Source of the DNA: Acetofilamentum sp.
Lineage (GTDB): Bacteria > Bacteroidota > Bacteroidia > Bacteroidales > DYOH01
NCBI GenBank assembly: GCA_020720625.1
Contig: DYOH01000018.1
Coordinates: forward strand, 1-46,594
DNA length: 46,594 nt
Direction: 5' to 3'
Below are positions 36,279 through 46,594 of the stretch, one piece after another. The position numbers were made by a program, and so were the translations under genes. The notes beneath the pieces were generated by a model that was given only the letters and a program-made list of their open reading frames with translations, had not been told where the DNA came from and did no database searches. How positions within the stretch are numbered: the first letter of the stretch is position 1; each line of letters opens with the position of its first letter.

Positions 36279-38432
36279 TTATATTGCAAACCTCCAAATT
36301 AATTTTCCGATAATAGTCGTTCGTTCCAATTTGATTGTGTTTTCTGTATTAAACTCCTGATTTATTATAAAGTAGAAAAAACTACCAATTTTAGGAATCC
36401 AGTTAATACGGTAATTGAGCAAGATATTTTCATCTTCATTATTCCATTGAGCGAATAAACCTGTTTGTAGTTTAGGATTGAAAGCATAATCAACACGTCC
36501 GCCAATTTCATCGGTTGTAAAGGATTTCTCAGGTAAACTTATGTAGTTTCGCTGCCAATCCAGACTTAAATTAAGATGTTTGTTGAAATTGAAAAAAGCA
36601 GCGAGTGAAAATTCCTGCCTGTGTCCGGTATAGAATTCACCAATATTAACAGACGTTTGTGCAGATATTTTTCGTCCTCTGAAAGTGCTTGCCTGAATTT
36701 CAAAACGGTTATCCCAGTATTCGCCTGCCGGAATATAAATACTGTCAATCAGTTCAAAATCTTCAGTAGGTTCATCGAATATATGTTGTATGTTAAACTC
36801 CATAAATTCACCGCTTTTTGATACGAAGCCGAACGGACGCCATTCATAAAAAACTGATTCTGTTTTTTTAGTTTCTTCATTGATATAATAGTTAATATCA
36901 ATTGGTTTGAATATTAAATTCCTGAAAAATGGAAGGCTTTTAAATCGAGGATTGAATTGAAGTTCGGTATAAAGCATTTGATAGTTGTTTCGATTGGTAA
37001 AACCCATTTCGGGATTAAAACCTTTCTCGACCGTTGTGAACCCACAATCATATTCAATTACATCATTTGGGTAACTTAGGAAAACATTATAGGAAAGGTT
37101 GTCTTTGTTTAAATTGTCATTATTGGCAAAAACTTTGGTTTCAGACAAAGCAAATTCTCCGCCTATAATCAGGTTTTTATTTCCAAAAATTTCAGATGTG
37201 GAATACGTGAAGTCCGCACCATAAACACGGTTATATCCTTTGTCGGAATATTTTTGCGTGCTTATTAAACCAATACTTGATTGTTTAAAAATATCTTGTT
37301 TAACACGGATTATTGAATAGTTGGTTGTTGGAATAGTATCTTCTGCATAGGTCTGTAAAGACATTACACCTATATTGGTACGGTTTAATTTGCCAAATAG
37401 CCTTGCTCCACCGATTATTGGAATTACACTGTTTTGCTCTATTCCAATTTTTCGGCTATAAAAAAGCCTTACGCTTCCAATGTTTAAATCGTAATAATTT
37501 TTTCCTTCCAGAAAGAATTGTCTTTTTTCAGGGTAGTAAAGTGAAAACCTCGACAGATTTATTTGTTTCCTGTCCGATTCTACTTGGGCAAAATCGGTGT
37601 TGGCGGTAAAGTTTAATTTGAATGTCGGTGTAATGTCAAAATTAACTTCGCCACCAATTTTAGCAGCATTAGTAGGTTTATCGTTGCTTAGTTGTGTGCC
37701 TGCAAGTAGGTATGGCTTAATTTCTATTTTTGTCCCTTGGCTAATATTATGAAGTCCTGAAATTTTTCCCCCTTGTGATATTTTTTCAATATCGTACAAT
37801 CTTGACCAGCCTTGCCACATTAACTGTTCTTTTTTTCGGCGGATATTCCTTTCAAAATTTATTCCCCAAACCTGTGAACTGTCATTAGTAAATTTCAATG
37901 TAGAAAAAGGGATAACTATTTCTACAAACCACCCCTGTTCATTTTTGAGCACGGCTACATCCCACACGCCATTCCAATCTTTATTAAAATCTTTGCCCTC
38001 ATCACCAACCCAAACATCAGCCAATGCTCCATTTGGATTTGTTACAAATAAGTAACCGTTGCGATTGTCGTTGAAGGGGCTAATCATAATTTCTATATTA
38101 TCATCGCTTCCCCAACTAAAATCACGGCTCATTTGTTGTGCCGAAATTTTATCTGGTTCACTGTCGAAGCACCAAATGCCGATATACATTTGGTTGGTAT
38201 TATAAACGACTGAAATCCGTGTTTTTTCGGTTGTTGGCATTCCTTCGCTTTGTTCTCTTTGTGTAAAATTTTCAATGGCAATGGCATCCAACCAGCAAGG
38301 TTCGTTCAAATGTCCGTCGAGTTTAATTTCTCCGGCAAAGGGCATTGCTCTAAGTGTATCAGGCTGCGAATGCTGTCCAAACAGATTGTTGCTCAATACC
38401 AATATTAAAATACATATAATTAGTTGTCTCAT
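36279..38432 (-). CDS. DUF5916 outer-membrane protein with CBM9-like N-terminal domain
   Basis: Predicted 717 residues from the ATG at 38432, which gives a signal peptide ending LFGQ. An in-frame extension to 38498 would hide it. Residues ~30-215 form a CBM9-like beta-sandwich (GEIKLDGHLNEPCWLDA; YIGIWCFDSEPDKI; WDVAVLKNEQGWFVEIVIPF). The remaining ~500 residues show alternating aromatic strands typical of the DUF5916 beta-barrel, ending in aromatic RFAI. Proposed to sit in the outer membrane; ligand unknown. It is the last core-looking gene before the accessory region. Confidence 0.85.
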   Translation of the reverse strand: MRQLIICILILVLSNNLFGQHSQPDTLRAMPFAGEIKLDGHLNEPCWLDAIAIENFTQREQSEGMPTTEKTRISVVYNTNQMYIGIWCFDSEPDKISAQQMSRDFSWGSDDNIEIMISPFNDNRNGYLFVTNPNGALADVWVGDEGKDFNKDWNGVWDVAVLKNEQGWFVEIVIPFSTLKFTNDSSQVWGINFERNIRRKKEQLMWQGWSRLYDIEKISQGGKISGLHNISQGTKIEIKPYLLAGTQLSNDKPTNAAKIGGEVNFDITPTFKLNFTANTDFAQVESDRKQINLSRFSLYYPEKRQFFLEGKNYYDLNIGSVRLFYSRKIGIEQNSVIPIIGGARLFGKLNRTNIGVMSLQTYAEDTIPTTNYSIIRVKQDIFKQSSIGLISTQKYSDKGYNRVYGADFTYSTSEIFGNKNLIIGGEFALSETKVFANNDNLNKDNLSYNVFLSYPNDVIEYDCGFTTVEKGFNPEMGFTNRNNYQMLYTELQFNPRFKSLPFFRNLIFKPIDINYYINEETKKTESVFYEWRPFGFVSKSGEFMEFNIQHIFDEPTEDFELIDSIYIPAGEYWDNRFEIQASTFRGRKISAQTSVNIGEFYTGHRQEFSLAAFFNFNKHLNLSLDWQRNYISLPEKSFTTDEIGGRVDYAFNPKLQTGLFAQWNNEDENILLNYRINWIPKIGSFFYFIINQEFNTENTIKLERTTIIGKLIWRFAI

Positions 38433-38457
38433 AATGCAATAAAGTTTCTTTTCATTT

Positions 38458-38604
38458 TCATTTCGATGTATTGCGTTGTCTTTCTCCGCTTGTGCCAAGT
38501 GTGATGTTATACCCTTTTTTTAAATTTATCAACTTCCATATATCATTGATTAACAAGTGGTCAAATGTTTGTATAGGGTCTTTTAATATTTCTTCTGTTT
38601 TCAT
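38458..38604 (-). CDS. Small open frame (48 aa) after the restriction endonuclease gene
   Basis: On the minus strand an ATG at 38604 opens a 48-residue frame (MKTEEILKDPIQ...RQRNTSK) that ends at 38458, before the DUF5916 signal peptide. Composition looks protein-like, with an acidic start, a hydrophobic mid-section (FDHLLINDIWKLINLKKG) and a basic end. It could be a small accessory protein of the restriction cassette or the truncated N-terminus of a lost gene. I do not recognise it. Confidence 0.35.
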   Translation of the reverse strand: MKTEEILKDPIQTFDHLLINDIWKLINLKKGYNITLGTSGERQRNTSK

Positions 38605-39566: not shown

Positions 39567-41140
39567 GTAACTCCGTCAAAAATACGTAATATTTTTGCAA
39601 AAAAGTCTTAATTTATTTGGAATTGAGATTTTTTTTATGTTATTTTGCTGTTACGTAAATACGTAATATATGGCAAATTCAAAACATCCACAATGGGCAC
39701 TCGATTGTAAACGACCCGGAACCGAGTTACGAAAAATTAATGGTCGATATTACCTCTATGCCGTAAGCAGTAAATGGGATAAAGATGCAAAAAAAACAAG
39801 AAAAATCAGCGGTAAGCTGCTGGGGAGTATTACAGAAGAAAAAGGGTTTATCGAGTCTAATAAATATAAAATAAGCAAACAGCACTTCGATAAACCATTA
39901 CAAGTCAAAGAGTACGGTGCGAGTAATTTTATCACTTCTCATTTCAATGCTTATATCGAAAAACTCAAAACAGCTTTTCCTGATATTTGGAAAGAAATTG
40001 TGGCCCTAAGTTTTAATCGCATGCTTTACCACAGTTCAATTAAAGATTCGGCATTTTTATTCGAAAAAAGCTATTTGTCGGAACTATATTCCGATATTAC
40101 CTTGAATGACAAAAAGGTATCGGCTTTGTATCGAAAAATAGGAATCGACCGAGCTGCCGTAACTTCATTTATGAAACAGTTTATCAGGAATGACGAGCAT
40201 ATTATTTTTGACGGTACGCAATTCATTTCACATTCAAAACTTATGGATGAAGCAAAAGTGGGTTACAGTTCAAAACATAATTATGAACCGCAACGAAACT
40301 TGTTGTTTCTATTTTCGGTTCAAAGCCAAATGCCGGTTTTTTACCGACTTTTGCTTGGAAACATAACCGATGTAAAAGCTTTCAAAACAACGATGCAGGA
40401 AGCCGAATTTATTAATTCGTTCGTAATTGCGGATAAAGGATTTTATTCCGAAGAAAACGTTGAAACCATGAACAACTTCAAGCTAAACTATGTTATTCCA
40501 CTTCGAAGAAGCAATAATTTAATTGATTACAGCGAAATTCAAAATCCGGAAAAACACGATTTTGACGGTTATTTTGAATATCAGGGGCGATTTATTTGGT
40601 ACAAAAAAAGTGAAAAAGATGGTAAATCCATTTACTTGTATTTGGACAAACAGCTCAAAAGCAAAGAAGAACATGATTATTTGACCCGCATCAATTCGCA
40701 TCCCGATAACTATAATTTCTCGGACTTCAAAAATAAATCACATGTTTTCGGAACCCTGACCTTACTTAGCAATGCAAAAGCAAAAACACCGATTGAAGTT
40801 TATAAGATTTATAAAACAAGGGGCGATATTGAAACCATGATTGATGCACTGAAAAATAATTTAGAATTAGATAAATCGCATATGCAAAATGAAGAAGCCA
40901 TGCAAGGCTGGATGTTTATTTCATTTATTGCCTTACAATGGTATTATGAAATTTATATGCTCATTAAGAAAAAAGAACTCACAGCTAAACATTCGCCCAA
41001 AGAATTGCTAATGCATCTTGCGGAAATAAAGAAAATTAGAATAAACAATAATTGGGTAGTTTCAGAATTTACAAAAAAAACACAACGCATGTTAGATAAG
41101 CTTGGTATTCCTGTTACGTAACGTTTGTGAAGAGTTACAG
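39565..41140 (+). mobile_element. IS4-superfamily (IS1634-like) insertion sequence
   Basis: Ends are drawn from short imperfect terminal inverted repeats: left CCGTAACTC (39565-39573), right GAGTTACAG (41132-41140). Further similarity inside covers the TACGTAA boxes at 39583, 39651 and 39660 on the left and 41114 on the right, which may be transposase-binding sites. TTTAAT occurs directly outside both ends (39559-39564, 41141-41146), as a 6-bp target duplication would. However, the left flank is methyltransferase and the right flank is group II intron, so the two sides do not join into one gene. Total 1576 bp with one intact transposase gene, so possibly still active. Confidence 0.78.
39670..41121 (+). 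CDS. IS1634-like DDE transposase
   Basis: Predicted 483 residues. The DDE triad is visible: Asp in HIIFDGTQFIS, Asp in SFVIADKGFYSEENV, and Glu in the exact IS4 signature Y-(2)-R-(3)-E-(6)-K (YKTRGDIETMIDALK). N-terminal YYLYAVSSKWDKDAKKTRKI resembles the DNA-binding head of this group. No frameshift or stop interrupts it. The stop codon overlaps a TTACGTAA end motif at 41114-41121. Confidence 0.9.
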   Translation: MANSKHPQWALDCKRPGTELRKINGRYYLYAVSSKWDKDAKKTRKISGKLLGSITEEKGFIESNKYKISKQHFDKPLQVKEYGASNFITSHFNAYIEKLKTAFPDIWKEIVALSFNRMLYHSSIKDSAFLFEKSYLSELYSDITLNDKKVSALYRKIGIDRAAVTSFMKQFIRNDEHIIFDGTQFISHSKLMDEAKVGYSSKHNYEPQRNLLFLFSVQSQMPVFYRLLLGNITDVKAFKTTMQEAEFINSFVIADKGFYSEENVETMNNFKLNYVIPLRRSNNLIDYSEIQNPEKHDFDGYFEYQGRFIWYKKSEKDGKSIYLYLDKQLKSKEEHDYLTRINSHPDNYNFSDFKNKSHVFGTLTLLSNAKAKTPIEVYKIYKTRGDIETMIDALKNNLELDKSHMQNEEAMQGWMFISFIALQWYYEIYMLIKKKELTAKHSPKELLMHLAEIKKIRINNNWVVSEFTKKTQRMLDKLGIPVT

Positions 41141-41913
41141 TTTAATACTATCCAACATCATTTTGCATGAATTGGACATGGAAATGGAACGCCGACACCT
41201 TAAATTTGTGCGCTATGCCGACGATTTTAGTGTTTACTGCAAAAGCAAAACCGAAGCACGCAAGATAGGGAACGAACTGTATTTATTTCTGAAAAACCGA
41301 TTGAAATTACCCATAAACTTCGAAAAGAGTGGCATACGCCGCCCTGTGAATTTCAAAATTCCGGGTTACGGCTTCGTGCCACGTACAAGAAAGGCGAAAA
41401 AGGTAAATATCAATTGGTTGTAGAAGACAAACAACTGAAAAACTTAAAATCGAAACTAAAAGAAATCACCCGCAAAACCGCGCCGTTGAGTTTATGCACG
41501 AATTATTATTTTTATGGTGTGCATGAGACCGCTTCGCTAAGTTCGAGGAGCGAATACGGAAAATCAAAGAAGTTGGCAGAGGTTGGATAAACTATTTCCG
41601 CTTTGCCAGCATGTACGAAAAACTACATCAGCTTGACGGCTGGCTTCGAAATCGTATTCGTTATTGCATCTGGCACGACTGGAAAAAACCTGAACGCAAG
41701 CGTAAAAACCTGATACGTTTGGGCGTAAATCCCGAAAAAGCCTACGCATTTAGTCGAACCCGCAAAGGCGGTTGGGCAGTGGCTCAAAGTCCGATTTTAA
41801 ACACCACCGTAACCCTCGAACGCCTAGTAAAACGAGGCTACGAGGCACTAACGACTCATTACCTAAAAGTTAGCCCACATTACCAAAGTTACCCACTTTT
41901 TCCCATTGTTTAA
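41141..41913 (+). pseudogene. Group II intron reverse transcriptase/maturase, truncated and frameshifted
   Basis: Starting at the IS edge, the frame reads LSNIILHELDMEMERR and then FVRYADDFSVYCKSK with the catalytic YADD, so it begins inside the RT palm. The first half of the RT is missing. The sense frame shifts near 41380 (continuing as YKKGEKGKYQLVVEDKQL). It then shifts again near 41540 after an insertion of roughly 47 bp that contains ATGCAC...GTGCAT, before resuming as FEERIRKIKEVGRGWINYF and MYEKLHQLDGWLRNRIRY (maturase domain X), ending at 41913. Three frames and the lost N-terminus make this a dead gene. Confidence 0.88.
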
Positions 41914-42516: not shown

Positions 42517-42816
42517 TTACATTCCTTTCCATGCCGAAGCTTCGAGTTGTAAGAATTTTTGCCTTTCCTCTTCTGACATAATTACCACCTGATAATCAAA
42601 AATAACACCGAGATTTGTTACAGGGTTTCTGATAGAATTGATCAACTGGTCGGCAATGGGAATATTGGGGAAAGGAAATGCAAAGGTAACTTCTGCTTTT
42701 TTATCGGTTACTTTTACGTCTTTAACAATGCCTAAAGTTGTTAAACTTAAATCAATTGCAGGGTGCATCACGCTTGCGATTGTTTCTTCAATTTGTTCTT
42801 TTACAGCGTTATTCAT
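42517..42816 (-). CDS. Stand-alone DUF59 domain resembling the Mrp/ApbC N-terminus
   Basis: Predicted 99 residues, one alpha/beta domain. The stretch SVMHPAIDLSLTTLGIVKDV closely follows the N-terminal domain of Mrp/ApbC Fe-S carrier ATPases (HPxLxxxLTTL). The conserved Cys found in the MIP18/SufT branch (around TTxxCP) is absent here: the region reads FPFPNIPIADQL. No ATPase domain follows. This suggests a partner for Fe-S or metal-cofactor delivery rather than an enzyme, by inference. One bp separates its start from the stop of the NifX-like gene, so they are coupled. Confidence 0.78.
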   Translation of the reverse strand: MNNAVKEQIEETIASVMHPAIDLSLTTLGIVKDVKVTDKKAEVTFAFPFPNIPIADQLINSIRNPVTNLGVIFDYQVVIMSEEERQKFLQLEASAWKGM

Positions 42817-42817
42817 A

Positions 42818-43138
42818 TTAATTTGTTTTTAAAAAGTTTTCAATTATTTGAGTTAATTTTTCTTCCTGTACCAATTGATAGTTCATGGAGCTGTTTTCTA
42901 CATCCTTTTTCATGTGTTTACCAATAGCGGCAACCAATAAAATACCCACATCGTTGAGTAATTCAATGATTTGTGCATGTGAATGTTCGGCTTCTTCGTC
43001 GTGTTCGTCCATCGTATTTTCTCTGTATTCAGAATGGATAATTTTACCGTTATTTACTTCATACACCATAAAGCCTTTGCTTTGTCCGGTTCTTTTGGTA
43101 ATTGTTTCCCGATTATCGGAAGGAATTGCTATTTTCAT
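42818..43138 (-). CDS. NifX/NifB-C-terminal-like dinitrogenase cofactor-binding family protein
   Basis: Predicted 106 residues, RNase H-like fold of the dinitrogenase iron-molybdenum cofactor-biosynthesis family. MKIAIPSDN at the start and ENRENT-like FMVYEVNNGKIIHSEYREN, then an acidic His-rich loop (DEHDEEAEHSHAQI), VGILLVAAIGKHMKKDV and a final helix match the usual family layout. Members bind Fe-Mo or Fe-S clusters as carriers. No nif genes are in view, so a nitrogenase role is not implied. Middle gene of the cluster, 28 bp from the methyltransferase gene. Confidence 0.85.
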   Translation of the reverse strand: MKIAIPSDNRETITKRTGQSKGFMVYEVNNGKIIHSEYRENTMDEHDEEAEHSHAQIIELLNDVGILLVAAIGKHMKKDVENSSMNYQLVQEEKLTQIIENFLKTN

Positions 43139-43166: not shown

Positions 43167-43826
43167 TTATTTTTCCGTTTTCACCGCTTTTAACAAACGA
43201 ACATAATTCTTCAAATAAAAATGTTCTTTAAAATGGCCAAAACCGGCTTCTTTTAGTATTGCTTTCCAATCGCGTTCAATGTAATCAAAGGCATATTTAC
43301 ATTCAATTTTTTTGAATATTAACCGGTGGAAAGCAGGCATTTTTGCCATATCAAATTCGGCAAAATCGAGGATATAAAATATTCCACCGCGCTTTAAATG
43401 AGTAAGTGCGTTTTGAATAACATTACTTCGGATTTCGTGTGGGAAACCGTGGATTACAAAGCTGATAAAAACGATATCGAATTGTTTTTGCAAATCGAAC
43501 GGCTGGTCGATACGTTGTTTTTTAAAACTAATATTCGACTGTCCTTTAAACTTTTGCAAGAACTGATTTTCCATCAGTTCGGAAACATCCAGTCCGGTAA
43601 TATGGCCGTTTTCGCCAAGGTATATTGCCATTAAAGAGGCATTTCTGCCTGTTCCGCAACCTAAATCTAAAATAGAGTTATTCGGTTGAATATCCATTTG
43701 TTTTATGGCTTTTTTTATGAAACCACGGTACAAGCCAAACGACATGGTATTCATTATTTTGTCGTAGTTTTTTGCAACAAATTTGTTGAGTTCAACTCCC
43801 GAATCGGGATAAATTTTTTCTGTCAT
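43167..43826 (-). CDS. Class I SAM-dependent methyltransferase
   Basis: Predicted 219 residues, Rossmann fold. SILDLGCGTGRNASLMA (motif I), HITGLDVSELM (acidic end of strand 2), FDIVFISFVIHGFP (motif II) and LKRGGIFYILDF (motif III) are complete. The overall look is UbiE/small-molecule type. The substrate is unknown; arsenite and quinone methyltransferases look similar, but no diagnostic Cys triad is visible. It starts 21 bp after the fusion gene stop. Confidence 0.88.
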   Translation of the reverse strand: MTEKIYPDSGVELNKFVAKNYDKIMNTMSFGLYRGFIKKAIKQMDIQPNNSILDLGCGTGRNASLMAIYLGENGHITGLDVSELMENQFLQKFKGQSNISFKKQRIDQPFDLQKQFDIVFISFVIHGFPHEIRSNVIQNALTHLKRGGIFYILDFAEFDMAKMPAFHRLIFKKIECKYAFDYIERDWKAILKEAGFGHFKEHFYLKNYVRLLKAVKTEK

Positions 43827-43847: not shown

Positions 43848-45746
43848 TTATTTTATTTTAAAAATGTCATAATAACTTTCTTCCACTTTTCCTTCGATAA
43901 TGTTTTGTTCGGTTAAAACTCTAAAATAATCTCTAACCTTTTCAACTAAGTTATCTCCACTTACATACTTGAAATTAACTCTGTTCAAAAATAATTCCAC
44001 CCTGTCAGCGGGTTGTCGCATCATATCAAATGATAAATCGGCTGCTTCGGGTTTATTATCATTTACCCAGTCAATGGCACTTTTTAGTTCATCTAAAAAC
44101 ACTTTTGCCAATTCAGGATTTTGACGCACAAATTCGCCTTTAAATACAATACCGGCATTAGGAAAACTTCCAAAACCGGGGTTTACTTCATTCCAAATTT
44201 CATTATACGACAGTATGGATACTTCTTCGCCTCTGTCTTGCATTATTTTTAGGGCATAGCTGGCTTCGGGTTCTCTCAGAATAACTGTATCTGCCTGTCC
44301 TTGAACAAAAGCTGCGTAAATTTCCTCCGGTCTTCCGAAAGGTTTGCCGTAAGCAAAATTAAAATCATCGGTATTTAAACCTTTTGCTTTTATCAAGTAT
44401 TTTGTAATTTTTGTCGGCGGTGCTTCTTCAAATAATGGGGTATAAATTATTTTACCTTTTATGTCATCAAAACCTGAGGCTTTGTATCGGGTAAGAATGA
44501 CAAAATTATCCCAAACAAAAAGAGCCGGTATTTTTATATCTGCATTTTGTAATTTTATTGAAGTTATTAAAGCCGAGAAACTAATGTCTGCTTTTCCGTT
44601 GGCAATCCAAGCAAGGTGTTTTTCTGTCTCTTCCCATACTTTTAGTTCTTTTATTTTTATATTTTTTCTGATTACATCGGATTGAAGCAATCGCATAATT
44701 ACCGGATAGGCGACAGGGGTTGCGGATTGTATTATCACTTCGGTTTTTATGCTGTTGCTGTTTTCGTCTGTATCAACAGGCTTTTTATAAAAATAAACCC
44801 AAATTTCCGAAGGTGAAACATATTCGGTTTCGTGTTCAAAGCCCATTTCGGCAAGCATATTTATCATAGGATAGGGTTCAAACCGCTGAATAAGCACAAA
44901 CCCATCATCTTCTGCCGTTGCATACGCTTTTTGAATGATAATATCAAATGGATCGGTTTGCATGGTTCGCACATCAAGTTGTACAAAATCGTTTTTTCGT
45001 TCACGCCAGTCAATATTTTTCTCTTTTTCAGGATTAAAAACAGATATTCTATATTCTCTCGATTTTTCGATATTTACCAATAAGTCTAAGCCTTTTGCTG
45101 TTTTTATTAGTTCAATAGGTTCTTTTATACTAATGATTACAATATTAGATTGTGGTTTTAAATTTGAAAGTTTTTCAATGATTTCAGGCATACTGTCATG
45201 ATTATAAATATACCTTTCCGAATTTTCTTCCCATGTAATAGCATCGCTTAATTCTATTATATTGAATTGAAAATCTTTATCTTTCATACATTCCGGTGCA
45301 ATTTTAAGCAATAAATCTTCTGTTCCGTTGGCTTTATTAAGCACATGCAGGATTTCGCAAACAGAGATACCGCTCACTTTTGCCGCATCGTTAAAACTTG
45401 CAAACTGTGCCAATGTATTATACATTACAGGGTTAAGCAGTTTTTTAAACTTATCGGAAAAACCCAACAGAACGTCTTTAAGGTGCGGATATTTATCGAG
45501 CGTTTCTTTTACTTTATGTTTTGCTAAAATAGGCTCTTTTTTTTCTGTGTTGATGTTCTTCTCTTCACTTTCAATCGCATTAACAGGGCAAACTTCTAAT
45601 GCGTCTTGGCATTGATTTTCTTCTGCCTCATTTTCGGGTTGTTTATACACGTAGGCTATTTGTTCGCTCATTTTAAAATTCTTGTCGGCTACTTCAACGC
45701 AAGCGTGGCAACTGATACATTCTTCTGTTACTTTATATGTTTTCAT
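43848..45746 (-). CDS. Cytoplasmic fusion: ferredoxin, DUF1858, two DUF2249-like domains, NMT1/SsuA-like binding domain
   Basis: Predicted 632 residues, no signal peptide or membrane segment. Residues 1-60: single-cluster ferredoxin with Cys10, Cys13, Cys16 and Cys53-Pro (extra Cys46). Residues ~80-145: DUF1858-like helical domain (LDKYPHLKDVLLG; NPVMYNTLAQFASFNDAAKV; GISVCEILHVLN). Residues ~150-235 and ~240-325: DUF2249-like alpha/beta domains, the second clearer (FVQLDVRTMQTDPFDII; MLAEMGFEH). Residues ~335-632: bilobal type II solute-binding domain (VIIQSATPVAYPVIMRLL; WIANGKADISFSALITS; QGQADTVILREPEASYAL) as in NMT1/THI5/SsuA proteins, which are normally periplasmic. Combining redox and ligand-binding modules suggests a cytosolic sensor or scaffold (inference). 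First gene of the five-gene cluster. Confidence 0.82.
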   Translation of the reverse strand: MKTYKVTEECISCHACVEVADKNFKMSEQIAYVYKQPENEAEENQCQDALEVCPVNAIESEEKNINTEKKEPILAKHKVKETLDKYPHLKDVLLGFSDKFKKLLNPVMYNTLAQFASFNDAAKVSGISVCEILHVLNKANGTEDLLLKIAPECMKDKDFQFNIIELSDAITWEENSERYIYNHDSMPEIIEKLSNLKPQSNIVIISIKEPIELIKTAKGLDLLVNIEKSREYRISVFNPEKEKNIDWRERKNDFVQLDVRTMQTDPFDIIIQKAYATAEDDGFVLIQRFEPYPMINMLAEMGFEHETEYVSPSEIWVYFYKKPVDTDENSNSIKTEVIIQSATPVAYPVIMRLLQSDVIRKNIKIKELKVWEETEKHLAWIANGKADISFSALITSIKLQNADIKIPALFVWDNFVILTRYKASGFDDIKGKIIYTPLFEEAPPTKITKYLIKAKGLNTDDFNFAYGKPFGRPEEIYAAFVQGQADTVILREPEASYALKIMQDRGEEVSILSYNEIWNEVNPGFGSFPNAGIVFKGEFVRQNPELAKVFLDELKSAIDWVNDNKPEAADLSFDMMRQPADRVELFLNRVNFKYVSGDNLVEKVRDYFRVLTEQNIIEGKVEESYYDIFKIK

Positions 45747-46218: not shown

Positions 46219-46594
46219 CTATTTTAAAAGTGGGAAAATATCAGTAAATTGGTTTGGCAATAATTCGGTCAAACGATTGGCTTTATGTTCAGGAATAGAT
46301 TCCAGAGCATGCTTTAACCATTTATATGGATCAACACTATTTCTTTTACAGGTAGCAAAAAACGAATACATCATAGCCGCACTCTGAGCAGCATCATGTG
46401 AACCGGCGAACAAATAATTTTTACGTCCTAGTGCTACAGGTCGAATACTATTTTCCACCAAATTGTTATCAATTTCAAAACGACCATCATCCACATAACG
46501 ATTTAATCGTGGCCATAACGACAGTGAATATTGAATGGCCTTCCCACGTTCGTCTCAGGCTCTTGCCTTAGACGTTCTATTTCTTAAGGCTTTG
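46219..46594 (-). pseudogene. IS66-family transposase, C-terminal part, interrupted and cut by the window edge
   Basis: The minus-strand frame from about 46545 to 46219 encodes GKAIQYSLSLWPRLNRYVDD, then GRFEIDNNLVENSIRPVALG, then RKNYLFAGSHD, with the IS66 catalytic Glu in ENSIRP and the C-terminal mini-domain (YKWLKHALESIPEHKANRLTELLP). Just upstream an in-frame TGA at 46555-46557 separates it from LRNRTSKARA. The usual ~25 residues between these blocks are missing, which suggests a deletion. The remainder lies beyond the window. Confidence 0.8.

Follow-up and report, generated by a model that had tools for sequence, protein, structure and literature searches.

A single gene of Acetofilamentum sp. 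encodes, in one polypeptide of 632 residues, a ferredoxin, a DUF1858 domain, two DUF2249-type domains and a complete solute-binding domain, an order that we have not found as a whole in any described protein, although its DUF1858-DUF2249-DUF2249 middle is already known from DrpB. The window, i.e. the whole stretch of DNA that was analysed, comprises 46,594 nt (positions 1-46,594 of contig DYOH01000018.1, assembly GCA_020720625.1). We give about even chances to the reading that the product is a cytosolic NO/nitrite response protein, in which a DrpB-type core has been combined with a one-cluster ferredoxin and an SsuA-like binding domain. A role of the fusion in the response of anaerobic bacteria to nitric oxide and related nitrogen oxides, suggested by the gene neighbours, is moderately supported, and the ligand and the mechanism discussed below are those that we infer. 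A literature search found no paper naming the full five-module architecture, nor any described protein in which all the modules follow in this order; the original prediction to this effect thus holds for the entire protein, but not for its middle. The gene and its modules are the following.

43848..45746, minus strand: whole fusion gene, 632 aa, ATG at 45746 and stop at 43848
45561..45746, minus strand: single-[4Fe-4S] ferredoxin head, residues 1-62, CxxCxxC...CP (Fer4_13)
45297..45521, minus strand: DUF1858 domain, residues 76-150, with invariant Cys130 and His134 (PF08984; solved relative 2fi0)
45027..45260, minus strand: first DUF2249-type domain, residues 163-240 (model fold, PF10006 in homologues, hhalign)
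44781..44990, minus strand: second DUF2249 domain, residues 253-322, TusA-like fold (PF10006)
43851..44747, minus strand: NMT1/SsuA-type binding domain, residues 334-632, no cysteine (PF09084, TIGR01728, fold, conserved cleft loops)

The original prediction had proposed, from the letters alone, one 632-codon frame (its strand, minus, was left unstated), with a ferredoxin in residues 1-60, a DUF1858 and two DUF2249-like domains, and a complete solute-binding domain in residues 335-632, and all of these are recovered. Pfam places Fer4_13 at residues 6-58 (E 3e-14), DUF1858 at 76-131 (E 1.7e-12), the second DUF2249 at 256-316 (E 7.8e-8) and NMT1 at 371-563 (E 3.3e-5), all four above the curated cut-offs. 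Pfam does not detect the first DUF2249 copy (about 163-240) in the fusion protein itself; this copy is identified by having the same beta-alpha-beta-alpha-beta-beta order as the second in the AF2 model, by two PF10006 matches in each of the G052 and G084 homologues, and by a profile alignment (hhalign) to DrpB that also covers it. The AF2 model, with 20 homologues as input, has a mean pLDDT of 81 and a pTM of 0.53, so that the orientation of the domains relative to each other is poorly defined. The predicted absence of a signal peptide is likewise confirmed: the protein has no N-terminal hydrophobic segment (Kyte-Doolittle mean 0.26 near the N-terminus), and no transmembrane helix is found in the 632-aa product (best 19-residue mean 1.14). 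An exported binding protein was therefore rejected, the N-terminus being occupied by the ferredoxin and lacking a hydrophobic stretch.

Relatives were found in 10 of the 99 genomes searched (the window's own, one more of the genus, one of the family and otherwise one per family of the order), and a species-level contig set contributed a further twelve, spread over Bacteroidota, Chlorobiota, Campylobacterota, Caldifarciminota (WOR-3) and Neomarinimicrobiota. Homologues of full or nearly full length, 50-81% identical, are present in independently assembled genomes of Bacteroidota, Chlorobiota, Campylobacterota and WOR-3, the nearest (81%) being that of locus L019. Since the same fusion recurs in so many independent assemblies, the risk of two genes joined by an assembly chimera or a frameshift, which had been raised with the original prediction, is discarded. 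The domain order is shared by most of the family, 18 of the 21 tree members being ferredoxin-headed, while L022, L009 and L010 form a well supported headless group. Across the phylum the gene is rare and patchy (2 carriers in 395 genomes). Different phyla interleave in the tree, but most of the deep forks among headed members lack resolution (7 of the 18 inner branches are open), which makes horizontal transfer of the gene likely rather than proved. One homologue (G055, L026 8237-9931) is interrupted in frame by a TAA near residue 565, which truncates the binding domain, and is either a sequencing error or a dying gene.

The head carries the CxxCxxC...CP motif of single-[4Fe-4S] ferredoxins and matches Desulfovibrio ferredoxin I (1dax) by phmmer; Cys10, Cys13, Cys16 and Cys53 are invariant in all 17 ferredoxin-headed sequences of the alignment. 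In L030, a locus from the same genome as headless L010, a separate 62-residue ferredoxin (1585-1773) lies directly 5' of the headless core gene; it shares 51% identity with the L008 head and 45% with the heads of L006 and L013. The occurrence of a domain as a fused unit in one group and as an adjacent gene in another is a classic sign of functional coupling, and such a coupling is what the ferredoxin, fused in the headed group and adjacent in L030, points to.

The core is homologous to DrpB, and is therefore the part of the fusion that is already known. The T. thermophilus protein (L103:5989-6807) consists of DUF1858 and two DUF2249 domains and aligns to the core with a blastp E of 1e-13 and an hhalign probability of 98.5 over 235 columns. 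Both proteins begin their shared part with DUF1858 followed by two tandem DUF2249 domains, and both have a MIP18 gene in the vicinity. They differ in that DrpB is a 273-aa protein with neither ferredoxin nor binding domain, encoded beside narGHJI and the single-DUF2249 DrpA (the MIP18 gene being further on), whereas the fusion has the two added domains and, in place of a nar operon, methyltransferase, NifX and MIP18 genes as neighbours. DUF1858 is found in 20 of 20 homologues. Outside the ferredoxin, the only cysteines that are invariant throughout the 20 aligned homologues are Cys130 and Cys153. Foldseek returned no match at E < 0.001 for the core model; TusA-like folds emerged in further comparison, with the second DUF2249 giving Z 9.2 with YeeD and 8.0 with TusA. 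The catalytic cysteine of the TusA sulfur carrier lies within a CPxP motif, and neither DUF2249 domain of the window protein has a cysteine; indeed, the only one within these domains of any homologue is found in L013 and L014, at the column of window residue 217. A TusA-type sulfur carrier was rejected on these grounds. For T. thermophilus, in which DrpB (DUF1858-DUF2249-DUF2249) is a protein of nitrate respiration, it has been reported that drpAB is required for nitrate-dependent induction and nitrate reductase activity, and that the nitrate reductase protein made by the mutants has little activity (PMC6282519). Furthermore, members of the COG4309 family are co-transcribed with norB in other bacteria (PMC1274295).

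The surroundings of the homologues bear on the same theme, in agreement with the nitrogen-oxide and Fe-S association anticipated for these DUFs, given that qNor, Hcp, NifX and MIP18 are all found as neighbours. A gene for the NO reductase qNor adjoins the fusion at four loci, namely L013 and L014, which are near relatives, and L011 and G109, where it is a C-terminal fragment at a contig end called by similarity to the L013 gene and by COX1. The hybrid cluster protein Hcp is encoded directly 3' of the core gene in L029 and L030. In the L019 cluster a haem-copper oxidase, a CuA-type subunit and a cupin lie beside the fusion; the 10 carriers of the 99-genome set all lack an oxidase of this type. 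Thioredoxin and thioredoxin-reductase-like genes (named from sequence alone) are found in L022 and a gene for a Pyr_redox_2 protein in the neighbourhood of L016, and many of the homologues' neighbours are unrelated or unannotated. DUF2249 genes were also seen about 1 kb from nrfA in two genomes (G048:C85:19859-22277 and G076:C42:20778-23141).

Promoter elements in the relatives add to this picture. In L030 the order is a Crp/Fnr gene, the HcpR2 box GTAACACTTGTTAC, the ferredoxin, the core gene and hcp; the box is the exact HcpR2 consensus, of which the whole genome has 2 exact copies. The box GTAACnnnnGTTAC of the HcpR regulon, found upstream of the headless homologue L030, is absent upstream of the window gene. 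The headless locus thus resembles the Hcp-FrdX/HcpR regulon of anaerobes (PMC1274295), as a ferredoxin-core-hcp operon behind an exact HcpR2 box, whereas the ferredoxin-headed carriers, including the window's genome, lack Hcp. A second locus of HcpR2 type occurs in G084 (L040 794-3013, G084:C92), with a divergent Crp/Fnr gene, the box GTAACTTCGGTTAC, a DUF2249 gene and hcp; the product of this DUF2249 gene has 232 aa and an N-terminal DUF2249-like match under the cut-off. A different palindrome, AATACC-N8-GGTATT, lies 72-108 bp upstream of five homologues, exact in four (0 of 200 shuffles each). It also precedes a DUF2249-pair operon in G055 (DUF2249x2, COX1-like, MIP18). In G051 it stands, with a single mismatch, before a PepSY gene like those found next to qNor and the fusion in L011, L013 and L014. 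Overall it was seen at L026, L027, L028, L016, L018, L076 and L077, before the fusion or other DUF2249 or NO-linked genes. Because the loose form (one mismatch) is common genome-wide, with 7-34 matches per genome, it was counted only where it stands in promoters; the window gene's own promoter has none.

The nitrogen-oxide reading therefore draws on the homology to DrpB, the qNor and Hcp neighbours, the boxes in relatives, the NrfA nitrite reductase encoded by the host genome, the conserved cleft of the binding domain and the precedent of NasS, the last two being taken up below. Against it stand the window's own locus and genome: there is no NO reductase or Hcp among the neighbours of the fusion gene in the window, neither qNor (PF22085) nor Hcp in its genome, and no box. 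Moreover, qNor co-occurrence among the 99 order relatives is not significant (4 of 10 carriers vs 18 of 89, Fisher p 0.22).

In the window the fusion heads a four-gene block on the minus strand, which it shares with the following genes.

43167..43826, minus strand: UbiE-like SAM methyltransferase, 21 bp downstream of the fusion (PF01209, 3.9e-18)
42818..43138, minus strand: NifX/dinitrogenase Fe-Mo cofactor family protein (PF02579, 5e-11)
42517..42816, minus strand: MIP18/DUF59 Fe-S assembly factor (PF01883, 3.4e-8)

These neighbours suggest a possible, though tentative, alternative, namely that the fusion is a maturation or repair factor for Fe-S or other metal cofactors, its ferredoxin and DUFs supplying electrons or handling NO-damaged clusters and its binding domain holding a cofactor precursor or chelate; the response would be the same, with a repair chaperone instead of a sensor. 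MIP18 lies beside the fusion in the window and in L018, and recurs in the box-controlled DUF2249 operon of G055 and in the T. thermophilus nar island; NifX is found in the window, L016 and L025, together with MinD-type ATPases carrying ferredoxin domains; and the nearly inactive nitrate reductase protein of the drpAB mutants (PMC6282519) would fit a defect of maturation. It is on account of MIP18, NifX and this phenotype that maturation or repair follows closely after a response protein. No scaffold or transfer motif was found, however, the non-ferredoxin invariant cysteines being limited to Cys130 and Cys153, and both MIP18 and NifX are missing from most homologue loci.

The binding domain is complete and two-lobed in the AF2 model, in which residues 334-632 superpose on 3hn0 with Z 26.3 over 269 residues. 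Other proteins of the same fold follow (PqqT 25.9, SsuA 24.2, Thi5 23.1, NrtA 21.3, MqnD 20.5 and DszB 18.2), as do the cytosolic regulatory domains of CmpC/NrtC (about 22 and 21). At the sequence level, the SsuA-type profile TIGR01728 matches with an E of 9.5e-9, under its curated cut-off, the comparison of the domain's profile with the PDB gives only a weak SsuA match, and the NrtA-type PF13379 scores 14.4 bits, below its cut-off of 24.7. The loops after the strands lining the cleft, as defined from predicted secondary structure, have an average top-residue identity of 92% vs 72% elsewhere, a value that random loops match in 0.035% of draws. The cleft thus appears to be in use, with a ligand that is probably common to the family, in line with the functional binding domain originally envisaged.

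In its fold the domain is closest to the SsuA/NMT1 binding proteins of ABC transporters (3hn0, PqqT, SsuA; Z 24-26), from which it differs by lacking a signal peptide and by being placed behind four other domains; no transporter permease or ATPase gene lies beside the fusion gene in the window. The original prediction had noted that such domains usually work outside the cytoplasmic membrane. Here the domain is indeed cytosolic, but this is not unprecedented, as exemplified by NasS, Thi5, MqnD and the regulatory domains of NrtC/CmpC. NasS, in particular, is a cytosolic nitrate/nitrite sensor related to binding proteins and without a signal peptide (PMC5424462), and is thus similar in having this fold inside the cell. 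It differs in pairing with the antiterminator NasT, while no nasT-like (ANTAR) gene neighbours the fusion gene in the window, and the fusion is below the NrtA-type cut-off. SsuA, 3hn0 and PqqT (Z 24-26) all resemble the domain more than NrtA does (Z 21), so that nitrate as its ligand, by analogy with NasS, would be a guess.

No stand-alone binding domain of the same subfamily was found in 395 genomes of the phylum, drawn evenly and including only 2 carriers. The nearest stand-alone relatives, about 26% identical, are on plasmids; one, on a Paraclostridium plasmid (L104 2893-6789), belongs to an ABC operon with two cupins that adjoins hemerythrin and ferredoxin genes. Cupin genes adjoin the fusion, too, in L016, L018 and L019.

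An enzymatic function of the fold, as in Thi5, MqnD and DszB, with electrons from the fused ferredoxin, is an unlikely but coherent explanation, and such an enzyme may replace an Hcp-type activity in Hcp-less carriers. Thi5, a cytosolic enzyme of the same fold, is the top Foldseek match of the binding domain (4.4e-15; VIA Z 23), and partners for electron supply recur, be it the fused ferredoxin, the separate one of L030, the thioredoxin pair of L022 or the Pyr_redox_2 protein of L016. Hcp is present in none of the 8 headed carriers (G000, G011, G046, G051, G054, G055, G077 and G085) vs 46 of the 99 genomes (hypergeometric p 0.005, uncorrected and post hoc), which should be read as a lead rather than a result. 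The two headless carriers in the 99-genome set, however, do have hcp, next door to the core gene. Furthermore, Thi5 has a CCCxC iron motif and DszB uses a cysteine nucleophile, whereas the binding domain has no cysteine in 19 of 20 homologues and one in the remaining homologue, so that both are excluded, nor does it have a recognizable flavin, haem or metal site. Identity with the HMP-P synthase Thi5 was rejected, the CCCxC motif being missing. A more specific version, a self-contained, ferredoxin-powered stand-in for Hcp that captures a nitrogen-oxide species or adduct and converts or reports it, seems to us doubtful.

Least probable of all is a role outside nitrogen oxides, for example in the handling of sulfur compounds or cofactors. 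It would be consistent with the sub-threshold TIGR01728 match and a fold near the sulfonate binders, with the TusA fold of the second DUF2249, and with the provenance of many hosts from sulfidic caves and sediments ('SulCav' in several homologue record names is taken by us as sulfidic cave). Both DUF2249 domains, however, are devoid of the TusA catalytic cysteine, and the recurrent neighbours are related to NO, not to sulfur.

If the fusion is a cytosolic NO/nitrite response protein, its gene would be induced when nitrogen oxides appear, and the binding domain would clamp a small ligand in its cleft in a NasS-like manner, be it nitrate, nitrite or another small molecule. Closure of the cleft might then be signalled to a partner by way of the DUF2249/DUF1858 core, with the ferredoxin coupling ligand clamping to the cellular electron supply, and the output would be the tuning, or the maturation and repair, of NO- and nitrite-handling metalloenzymes. 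To our knowledge, no biochemistry has been described for DUF1858 and DUF2249, though both are repeatedly found next to enzymes of nitrate, nitrite and NO in bacteria as well as archaea. Because it links them with an electron carrier and with a binding domain whose cleft is conserved, the fusion offers a direct handle on these domains, and the ligand and redox partner of one soluble protein would make the role of the whole DUF family testable; an Hcp stand-in, if true, would give them their first defined biochemical role. The fusion is also a candidate addition to the short list of cytosolic binding-protein folds.

Finally, the four-gene block is flanked on one side by a DDE transposase and, after it, group II intron RT/maturase remnants (39670-41910) and on the other by an IS66 transposase fragment (46219-46494), from which it follows that it may be a mobile insertion. 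Rfam gave no matches over 36-46.6 kb of the window, and at 36279-38498 the window encodes a DUF5916/CBM9-like protein of outer-membrane type.
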